From positions 1 to 54,203 of the forward strand of contig JACQQV010000011.1 in assembly GCA_016206785.1 (NCBI GenBank): DNA of 54,203 nt, read 5' to 3'. Below, piece by piece: positions 3,387-10,860 of this stretch. The DNA is from Candidatus Omnitrophota bacterium (lineage in GTDB: Bacteria; Omnitrophota; Gorgyraeia; JACQQV01). How positions within the stretch are numbered: position 1 is the first letter of the stretch; each line of letters opens with the position of its first letter. The notes below the pieces were generated by a model, which saw only the letters and a list, made by a program, of their open reading frames with translations, made no database searches and was not told where the DNA came from. The position numbers and the translations under genes were made by a program.

Positions 3387-3460
3387 TGGAGCGGGCGATG
3401 AGAATCGAACTCACGTGAGTAGCTTGGAAGGCTACCGTTCTACCATTGAACTACGCCCGC
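3387..3460 (-). tRNA. tRNA-Gly (anticodon TCC)
   Basis: Acceptor GCGGGCG/CGCCCGC and anticodon stem GTAGC/GCTAC around CTTCCAA give anticodon TCC. The T arm is GTGAGTTCGATTCTCAT. TCCA is encoded at the 3' end. It corresponds to glyT of the thrU-tyrU-glyT-thrT-tufB order. Its 5' end directly abuts a structured repeat. Confidence 0.96.
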
Positions 3461-3580
3461 GCGCTCGCAAATGAGTGAAACGAATTGCTCGCTTTCCAAT
3501 GGGGGAAACTACGTTTCCCCCCTATGGCGGGGTTTGTCTCATGGCAACCACTACAAACCCCTGTTACCCCCCTTCCTAAT
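3461..3580 (-). repeat. tRNA-junction structured repeat, copy A
   Basis: First of three copies of a ~120-base element that lies on the transcribed strand directly 5' of a tRNA, with no gap. It contains a constant stretch CCCCCTATGGCGGGG (plus strand) joining two hairpins: 3501-3509 with 3513-3521 (9 bp, 3-base loop) and 3529-3537 with 3553-3561 (9 bp, 15-base loop). A conserved CTGTTACCCCC and CCTTTCCT-like border follows. It begins right after the stop codon of the 73-residue coiled-coil gene. Other copies: 4070-4190 and 10737-10860. Confidence 0.85.
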
Positions 3581-3581
3581 T

Positions 3582-3803
3582 CTATTTCACCTTTGATTCT
3601 AAAAGAGCAAGGCGCTGATCGGTCTGTTTGGCAAAGATCTTGAAAAGAATCCGGAGATCGACAATTTCTTGTCTCACGGACTGGAAACCTTGCTCCATTT
3701 CCTGCTTCATCTCGTTTCTTAAGGAAATGAGACCTTCCGCAACTATTTTGACACCATCTCGAACTTCTTCTAGTAAAACCTCGAATCGTTCTTTTTCACC
3801 CAT
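3582..3803 (-). CDS. Small coiled-coil protein, function unknown
   Basis: A 73-residue charged protein starting MGEKERFEVLLEEVRDGVKI, helical throughout, with heptad-like spacing of L, I and V. There is no signal peptide or membrane segment. Small proteins with this MGEK.RFE.LLEE start recur next to other genes in diverse bacteria, from memory, without known function. It lies between tRNA-Tyr (65 bases upstream) and tRNA-Gly (downstream across repeat copy A). It therefore interrupts the usual Tyr-Gly tRNA pair and would share their transcript. Confidence 0.7.
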   Translation of the reverse strand: MGEKERFEVLLEEVRDGVKIVAEGLISLRNEMKQEMEQGFQSVRQEIVDLRILFKIFAKQTDQRLALLESKVK

Positions 3804-3868
3804 GATCTTCGATTTCCTCTATTACGATTCTCGGCTCCCTTTTAATACGATACGCTATTCGCTAAAGA

Positions 3869-3953: not shown

Positions 3954-3997
3954 ACATGTTAAAGGATAAAGTTTCATATAAAATCCCTACAGAGCGG

Positions 3998-4069
3998 AGC
4001 CGGCAGAGGGAATTGAACCCCCGACCCGCGGTTTACAAAACCGCTGCTCTGCCCCTGAGCTATGCCGGC
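3998..4069 (-). tRNA. tRNA-Thr (anticodon TGT)
   Basis: Acceptor GCCGGCA/TGCCGGC; anticodon stem GCGGT/ACCGC around TTTGTAA gives TGT; T arm GGGGGTTCAATTCCCTC. The 3' end reads TCCG, so the CCA tail is not encoded, unlike the neighbouring Gly, Tyr and Thr(GGT) genes. It corresponds to thrU. Its 5' end abuts repeat copy B. Confidence 0.95.
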
Positions 4070-4190
4070 GTCGTTCGCAAATCCATGAAAACGAAGTGCT
4101 CTCTCCCCAATGGGGAAAACCAAGGTTTTCCCCCTATGGCGGGGTTTGTCTGGTATAACATTCTACAAACCCCTGTTACCCCCTTTCCTT
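4070..4190 (-). repeat. tRNA-junction structured repeat, copy B
   Basis: Second copy of the element. It fills the whole gap between the stop codon of nnrD (TAA at 4189-4191, immediately followed by GGAAAGGGGGTAAC on the minus strand) and the 5' end of tRNA-Thr(TGT). The hairpins are GGGGAAAACC/GGTTTTCCCC and GGGGTTTGT/ACAAACCCC. The second loop differs completely in sequence from copy A while both stems are kept. Confidence 0.85.
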
Positions 4191-5034
4191 AAGAACTAAC
4201 TTTCTTGAAGGCTTGAGGTAAATATCTTAAAAGGTCGCTGGCGATGAGGCTGACTTCCCCCTTTTCTTTGACGGCGAGATCCCCGGCGAGTCCATGAACA
4301 TACACACCCCGACATGCCGCCAGAAAAGGATCCATCCCCTGGCCTAAAAAACTTCCGATGATTCCGGTCAAGACATCCCCGCACCCTCCCGTCGCCATAC
4401 CGGGATTTCCTGTCCGGTTGATATAGAGCTTACCTTGAGGAGAAGCGACGACCGTCCGGTATCCTTTCAAGACGGTCGTCACATTGTACCGCAACGCAAA
4501 CTGTTTGACTATTCTCTTTCGATCTTCCTGAACCGTCTTACTCGTTTTTCGAATCAGTCGCCCCATTTCACCAGGATGAGGCGTCATGACGATAGAACAC
4601 CTTGCCTTCTTGAGCACCGCCGGGTTTTTGGCAATTGCATTCAGACCATCCGCATCCATCACTGCCGGTTTAGAAAGTTTTGGAATAAGGCGATGAACCA
4701 ACTGGATAGTTTCCCGCTGTTGTGAGAGACCGGGACCGATCGCAACGGCATCCACCGTTTTGCATTTCTTCAGGATGGGAGTGAGTGATTTCAAAGAAAA
4801 ACTTTGTGCCTTTGTCTCAGGAAGGGGAAGAATCATGAGTTCTAAAAATTTCCGCGCGACAATAGGGTAAAGACTCTTGGGAACCGCCAGCGTGACAAGG
4901 CCGCTTCCTGAAAGAAGGGCTGCCCGGCTGCAGAGAAGGGCCGCACCCGCGTATCCCAGAGAACCCGCAACCACAAAGAGATGGCCAAAATCCCCCTTGT
5001 GAGAGTCTTTTCGGCGTCTTTCTAAAAATTTCAT
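4189..5034 (-). CDS. nnrD: ADP-dependent (S)-NAD(P)H-hydrate dehydratase
   Basis: Repairs hydrated NAD(P)H by ADP-dependent dehydration in the cytoplasm. The 281-residue protein has the ribokinase-like fold motifs GDFGHLFVVAGSLGYAGAA near the N-terminus, MDADGLNAIA, MTPHPGEMGRL, and the nucleotide/catalytic signature GNPGMATGGCGDVLTG near residue 230. It is the stand-alone dehydratase; the NnrE epimerase domain often fused in front is absent. The start ATG overlaps the stop of acpS by 4 bases (ATGA), so the two are translationally coupled. The stop codon merges into repeat copy B. Confidence 0.93.
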   Translation of the reverse strand: MKFLERRRKDSHKGDFGHLFVVAGSLGYAGAALLCSRAALLSGSGLVTLAVPKSLYPIVARKFLELMILPLPETKAQSFSLKSLTPILKKCKTVDAVAIGPGLSQQRETIQLVHRLIPKLSKPAVMDADGLNAIAKNPAVLKKARCSIVMTPHPGEMGRLIRKTSKTVQEDRKRIVKQFALRYNVTTVLKGYRTVVASPQGKLYINRTGNPGMATGGCGDVLTGIIGSFLGQGMDPFLAACRGVYVHGLAGDLAVKEKGEVSLIASDLLRYLPQAFKKVSS

Positions 5035-10660: not shown

Positions 10661-10736
10661 TGGTGGCGGCGAAGGGACTCGAACCCCTGACCCATGGATT
10701 ATGATTCCACTGCTCTACCGACTGAGCTACGCCGCC
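10661..10736 (-). tRNA. tRNA-Met (anticodon CAT), elongator type
   Basis: Acceptor GGCGGCG/CGCCGCC, anticodon loop ATCATAA (CAT), T arm AGGGGTTCGAGTCCCTT, encoded ACCA. A CAT anticodon could also mark the TilS substrate tRNA-Ile2. The G4-C69 and G5-C68 pairs are unlike the C4-G69/C5-G68 pairs that E. coli TilS recognises, and the acceptor resembles elongator tRNA-Met, so Met is preferred. It is not an initiator because the first pair is intact. It stands between mnmA and the secreted-protein/tilS genes, directly 3' of repeat copy C. Confidence 0.85.
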
Positions 10737-10860
10737 TCGCTCGCGAATACAGTTTAAGCGAATCGCTCGCTCTCCAATGGGGAAAACCTTAGGTTTTCCC
10801 CCTATGGCGGGGCTTGTCTCAAGAAAAACCTCTTCAAGCCCCTGTTACCCCCTTTCCTAA
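10737..10860 (-). repeat. tRNA-junction structured repeat, copy C
   Basis: Third copy, filling the interval between mnmA and tRNA-Met and abutting the tRNA 5' end. Stem 1 is GGGGAAAACC/GGTTTTCCCC. Stem 2 is GGGGCTTG/CAAGCCCC: a T-to-C change on one side is matched by A-to-G on the other relative to copies A and B. The constant CCCCCTATGGCGGGG and CTGTTACCCCCTTTCCTAA parts are kept. Confidence 0.85.

Follow-up and report, generated by a model that had tools for sequence, protein, structure and literature searches.

A candidate mobile hairpin element without protein genes at tRNA gene boundaries in Omnitrophota

Omnitrophota are a poorly known bacterial phylum. In one of their genomes, a structured repeat is found three times within the window (the whole stretch of 54,203 nucleotides that was analysed), each time directly in front of a tRNA gene. 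What is this repeat, and what ties it to tRNA genes? Many bacteria carry small palindromic mobile elements, whose choice of site is to our knowledge mostly unexplained. A preliminary description of the locus had named two candidates, a new non-coding RNA and a mini-element homing to tRNA genes. The features of the three copies are given below, where R1 is a covariance model built from the source-genome copies and P1, P2 and P3 are hairpins.

3387..3460, minus strand: tRNA-Gly(TCC)
3461..3577, minus strand: element copy A (R1, 127 bits), flush upstream of tRNA-Gly(TCC)
3562..3577, minus strand: 5' conserved segment of copy A, AGGAAGGGGGGTAACA, nearly invariant in the six own-genome copies
3529..3561, minus strand: hairpin P2 of copy A, stem and loop both variable
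3496..3527, minus strand: hairpin P1 of copy A, CCATAGGGGGGAAAC..GTTTCCCCCATTGG
3461..3495, minus strand: hairpin P3 of copy A with tandem G.A pairs, GCGAGCAA..TTTGCGAGC, 3' end at tRNA +1
3996..4069, minus strand: tRNA-Thr(TGT)
4071..4189, minus strand: element copy B (R1, 134 bits), 1 nt upstream of tRNA-Thr(TGT)
4141..4173, minus strand: hairpin P2 of copy B
4107..4139, minus strand: hairpin P1 of copy B
4071..4106, minus strand: hairpin P3 of copy B, placed by position, its stem being poor in this copy
10661..10736, minus strand: tRNA-Met(CAT)
10737..10858, minus strand: element copy C (R1, 129 bits), flush with tRNA-Met(CAT)
10809..10842, minus strand: hairpin P2 of copy C, GGGGCTTG/CAAGCCCC
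10774..10807, minus strand: hairpin P1 of copy C
10737..10773, minus strand: hairpin P3 of copy C, GCGAGCGA..TTCGCGAGC

Since the three tRNAs lie on the minus strand, each of them has the element upstream and in the same sense. The model bounds agree with the places at which the copies had first been described, and the stems quoted there, together with the invariant linker CCCCCTATGGCGGGG, are present in the window copies. The zero gap to the tRNA holds for the Gly and Met copies (0 nt) but not for the Thr copy (1 nt). Both hairpins of the original two-hairpin structure were also recovered; a third one, P3, which lies between them and the tRNA, had been missed. Read in the sense of the tRNA, the element runs from AGGAARGGGGGTAACA through hairpin P2, the dinucleotide CG, hairpin P1 (CCATAGGGGGAAAAC..GTTTTCCCCATTGG) and hairpin P3 to position +1 of the tRNA. 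Its core can be written as AGGAAGGGGTRACA, the variable stem P2, CG, P1 (CCATAGGGGAAAC..GTTTCCCCTATGG) and P3. The 5' end of copy B overlaps the stop codon of a 281-aa gene (4189-5034). Between tRNA-Tyr and copy A, the minus strand also holds a small open reading frame of about 73 aa (approximately 3586-3805) which possibly encodes a coiled coil.

The source genome assembly comprises 1.6 Mb in 50 contigs, and 41 tRNAs were found in it. BLAST revealed six copies of the element and a covariance model a seventh, all of them joined to a tRNA 5' end in one common orientation. The three further BLAST copies precede tRNA-Pro(GGG), tRNA-Gly(CCC) and tRNA-Asp(GTC), and the seventh, more divergent copy, found with the core covariance model, forms the leader of tRNA-Leu(CAA). 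By eye, the leader of tRNA-Cys(GCA) is similar to the element as well; the remaining tRNAs of the genome are without it. The source-genome copies are about 80% identical to one another and look old and fixed. On contig C14, between tRNA-Met and tRNA-Val(CAC), just the final 15 nt (GCGATTCGCGAGCGA) of the element stand before tRNA-Val(CAC), a possible remnant.

Comparison of copies showed that the stem and loop of P2 vary freely while pairing is kept. In the Pro copy P2 has GGCG/CGCC instead of GGGG/CCCC, and in the Asp copy an unrelated stem stands in its place and still pairs fully (GTCCGCCAA/TTGGCGGAC). Among the six copies, 96.8% of cells were paired against 91.1% in shuffled alignments; double changes numbered 9 where shuffling gave 2.9, and none of 500 shuffles reached as high a value. 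In a core alignment of 39 sequences, which was fitted to the model, the values were 97.8% against 73.4%, with 189 double-change cells against 53. A separate and independent set of 67 hits gave 89.6% against 70.6% and 249 double-change cells against 77 (0 of 500 shuffles); its lower pairing is largely due to two P2 positions which are mostly non-standard and which, as read from the sequences, appear to be tandem G.A pairs. The paired stem changes first noted in the window, and the selection on a folded strand proposed from them, were thus borne out in all three sets, including the larger alignment in which covariation was to be sought.

The same kind of pairing is found in P3. What look like GCGAGC "direct repeats" beside the tRNA are more plausibly the two arms of P3, held together via tandem G.A pairs, and in relatives these arms change together (GGAGCGTC/GACGCGAC, GGAGCACC/GGTGCGAC and GGAGGACCC/GGGTCCGAC). 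Moreover, P3 arms pair better within one copy than across copies (0 of 2000 permutations as high). A further hairpin, P0, is often seen by eye upstream of the core in related genomes and is absent from the source-genome copies. G-U pairs are scarce (6 of about 730 and 17 of about 770 pairs), as would be expected of single-stranded DNA or perfect palindromes more than of classical RNA; G.A pairs fit either RNA or single-stranded DNA. Because G-U outnumbers A-C and G.A outnumbers T.C, the tRNA-facing strand is taken to be the one that folds.

Placement was examined with R3, a core-only covariance model which was built from 39 diverse copies and contains no tRNA sequence. It yielded 139 distinct copies, 81 of which abut an intact tRNA or tmRNA, a degree of adjacency with a binomial p of about 1e-44 even were 10% of positions to qualify. 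This search, with its listing of 3' neighbours, had been proposed at the outset to learn whether copies gather at tRNA 5' ends, and the fixation to such ends stood in part. In 49 copies the 3' end of the element abuts a tRNA 5' end in sense, but in 32 it abuts a tRNA or tmRNA 3' end in antisense, and others lie at tRNA fragments or away from tRNAs. At least 18 copies adjoin a tRNA fragment; at most 40 have neither tRNA nor fragment by a crude motif search, and some of these are fragments by eye. As the acceptor stem is an inverted repeat, we infer that both main placements put the tail of the element at the same kind of edge.

Distances from core to tRNA cluster mostly at 21-36, 42-57 and 80-93 nt, which are the lengths of P3 variants. 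At most 5' sense sites P3 is rich in GC and has tandem G.A pairs; at 3' antisense sites it is, in several families, AT-rich and resembles a terminator. Some copies have an intact tRNA on one side and, on the other, its 3' end repeated directly (29 nt in L142; also L141, L130, L124 and L077), and fragment-flanked copies show, by eye, an inverted T-arm piece at their other side. The tRNA-3'-end repeats resemble att duplications or the spacer repeats of E. coli tyrT. The left flank was, as a general rule, no more complementary to the tRNA end next to the element than in permutations. A consistent promoter between element and tRNA was not found, one being present only in some copies with a long P3.

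Are these sites filled by insertion? Genome G281, with 19 copies, was compared with its congener G084 at five syntenic sites; in G084, R3 had no match at E ≤ 0.1 in 33 loci (30 tRNA genes and three clusters). The Cys-Leu-Val spacers measure about 12 and 22 nt when empty (G084) and about 189 and 297 nt when filled (G281). At tRNA-Glu, 5 nt separate the stop codon of the preceding gene from the tRNA in G084, against roughly 310 nt in G281. Insertions in G281 facing empty sites in G084 are also found at Thr-Tyr-Gly, Ser-GCT and Gly-CCC. In the copies compared, filled sites end in CGAC followed by 0-3 nt and then the tRNA.

A second congeneric pair gave similar results in both directions. In G067, a 209-nt antisense copy lies right behind tRNA-Gly and is missing in G041, where the flanks of the empty site join through GTATTAAAAAG. 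Two copies at tRNA-Thr in G067 face none in G041, while at one tRNA-Ser locus G041 is filled and G067 empty. Presence and absence at orthologous sites, the mark of a mobile element, was therefore found in both pairs, although lineage loss rather than gain could lie behind part of the differences. Between the two candidates of the preliminary description, the filled and empty sites favour tRNA homing, and a non-coding RNA with a regulatory role alone has become the less favoured option.

Among the 384 genomes of the same class that were searched, R1 matched 52 at E ≤ 0.001 and R3 matched 68 at E ≤ 1e-5, the latter patchily across families. A detailed search counted 7 copies in the source genome, 14 in G067, 19 in G281, 4 in G054, 3 in G145 and 0 in G023. 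BLAST with one copy gave no match in 38 class relatives, the sequences being too diverged. A pattern scan of named genomes found the element in "Candidatus Omnitrophota bacterium MohnsGC05_bin046". Its restriction to Omnitrophota is provisional, as other phyla were covered by one exact-pattern scan alone. No element was found in viral contigs by exact-pattern scans or in phages and plasmids by blastn, and the literature searches made returned no tRNA-tied repeat for Omnitrophota. At Rfam gathering thresholds, tRNAs alone matched in the window; at E ≤ 1, 12 loci gave tRNA, tmRNA and scattered weak matches, mostly over tRNA genes and none consistent with the element. The initial impression that no named family applies thus agrees with Rfam at gathering and permissive thresholds alike.

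From this evidence we consider it fairly probable that the repeat is a protein-less mobile hairpin element whose copies, once inserted at tRNA boundaries, act as pre-tRNA leaders. Copies are about 120-320 nt long and consist of a chain of hairpins with no protein gene. An enzyme supplied in trans would recognize the folded single strand, either as single-stranded DNA hairpins or as an RNA intermediate, and attach the 3' end of the element to a tRNA gene at its acceptor-stem edge. At the 5' side, the copy would then be transcribed as a pre-tRNA leader and removed by RNase P, which would make the insertion nearly harmless. RNase P RNA is present in 6 of 6 genomes tested. The near-identical single-stranded segments of the source-genome copies could reflect a function after insertion, and a regulatory leader role acquired at that stage is possible and compatible with mobility. 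A bolder version seems unlikely to us: that the element belongs to a hitherto undescribed class of mobile elements, based on RNA or on a single strand, which land on the acceptor-stem edge from either side, possibly by way of an RNA intermediate linked to the tRNA; RNase P would make the 3' end of this intermediate, and some enzyme would copy the RNA back into DNA.

The Y1 transposase family (PF01797) was considered as mobilizer and proved not to discriminate. It occurs in 11 of 12 genomes tested, one of them element-free, and is absent from the element-bearing G107; it is too widespread to be implicated or excluded. No element was found within the retrieved neighbourhoods of six Y1 transposase genes. 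Terminal inverted repeats were not seen (the two ends of own-genome copies match at 3-5 of 15 positions), and no target-site duplication is visible in the filled and empty pairs shown, whose spacers have diverged.

Another reading, possible though distinctly less likely than mobility, is that of a functional structured 5' tRNA leader: with P1-P2-P3 stacked on the acceptor stem, it would govern how selected tRNAs are transcribed, how stable they are or how RNase P cleaves them. All own-genome copies (6-7 of 6-7) are sense 5' leaders with nearly invariant single-stranded segments, the strand signal (G-U over A-C, G.A over T.C) favours the tRNA-sense strand, and the foot of P3, flush with tRNA +1, is a conserved tandem G.A. 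In addition, a -10-like TATAAT lies 9-11 nt before the element at source tRNA-Leu(CAA) and at tRNA-Ser of G281. However, the tRNAs that bear the element differ from genome to genome, congeners manage without it, antisense 3' copies and fragment-adjacent copies cannot be leaders, and G-U pairs are rare for RNA.

The repeats of tRNA 3' ends bring up mini-islands of a tRNA-specific site-specific recombinase, with the tRNA 3' end as att core and integrases acting in trans. Several copies do lie between an intact tRNA and such a repeat (L142, L141, L130, L124), yet the direct repeat brackets a minority of copies (with L077 added) and no duplicated tRNA segment was seen at 5' sense insertions. One element core is also found with att-like repeats of many different tRNAs, and an unsystematic look linked no integrase or cargo to the element, so that we regard this reading as improbable. 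Least probable is a transcription terminator or insulator that keeps neighbouring transcription out of tRNA genes. The sense strand of the element points at the tRNA in both main placements, and P3 is terminator-like in antisense 3' copies; against this, the gene behind 3' antisense copies more often points away from the tRNA (14 vs 6), so neighbour-gene orientation does not support the role, and several 5' copies separate tRNAs that are neighbours in the same operon.

The mobile hairpin element can be compared with several known systems. In E. coli, the spacer repeats of tyrT (rtT RNA) are units downstream of a tRNA gene that are delimited by copies of the tRNA 3' end. They resemble the fragment-flanked copies of the element; unlike them, most element copies lie at 5' ends or in antisense. 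The tyrT repeats belong to one operon, and we know of no fold which they share with the element. Tn7-like CAST and the eukaryotic Ty1/Ty3 also target their insertion to tRNA gene neighbourhoods. These are large and carry transposase or integrase genes, and Ty1 and CAST insert tens to hundreds of bp from the tRNA gene, whereas the element is small, protein-less and 0-3 nt from the tRNA in the copies compared.

REP and REPIN sequences are small gene-free intergenic palindromes which occur in many copies per genome and for which movement in trans by TnpA_REP (RAYT), in the form of single-stranded hairpins, is assumed (PMC8266576, PMC3116915). The element is likewise a small intergenic palindromic unit without genes, but its copies are few and concentrated at tRNA boundaries, and it has no consistent link to a Y1 transposase. 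The GTAG test for REP membership failed: the hairpin feet are AACAG (P1) and CG (P2), and GTAG occurs only inside loops of some copies. Mitochondrial hairpin and double-hairpin elements are non-coding hairpin chains dispersed in intergenic space and presumed mobile (PMC2800124). They share with the element the chain of hairpins and the lack of coding capacity; the source passages considered do not describe them as tied to tRNA ends (PMC2800124). A MITE of a DDE transposon was rejected on terminal inverted repeats and target-site duplication, and an integron attC on its motifs, with no GTTRRRY in six own-genome copies and RYYYAAC once, in one copy. Since the REP, MITE and attC tests failed, the repeat is filed as a small palindromic mobile element with a tRNA-edge target rule, outside named families.

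This rule is unusually exact, with the 3' end of the element at the edge of the tRNA gene, in sense at the 5' side or in antisense at the 3' side. Together with the natural filled and empty pairs in congeners, it makes the targeting question directly testable. If the proposed mobility holds, a number of pre-tRNAs in this phylum would have acquired long folded leaders by insertion, a possible route for the origin of new tRNA leaders and non-coding RNAs.

Several further features came to light. In G054 (L125, 780-1200), a tRNA-Asn gene is split near the D arm by roughly 300 nt with a weak likeness to group I introns (14.8 bits, E 0.23), and in G121 (C41:2928-3512) the RNase P RNA match spans 585 nt against a 367-position model, which suggests an internal insertion. 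Downstream of tRNA-Phe and tRNA-Tyr (L077/L275 and L063), small sequences that lack the P1-P2 core are likewise bracketed by tRNA 3'-end repeats. Beside elements in L078 and L244, tRNA-Arg and tRNA-Val genes appear to have GC-rich palindromes inserted in their D loop (TTCCGCCCC..GGGGCGG). At six loci (L056, L074, L075, L113, L234 and L280), antisense 3' fragments of tRNA or tmRNA stop within the T loop or the anticodon loop and give way to a hairpin starting CCTACTAC; several such hairpins end in GTAGG, as if another, REP-like (GTAG) hairpin element had entered tRNA loops.
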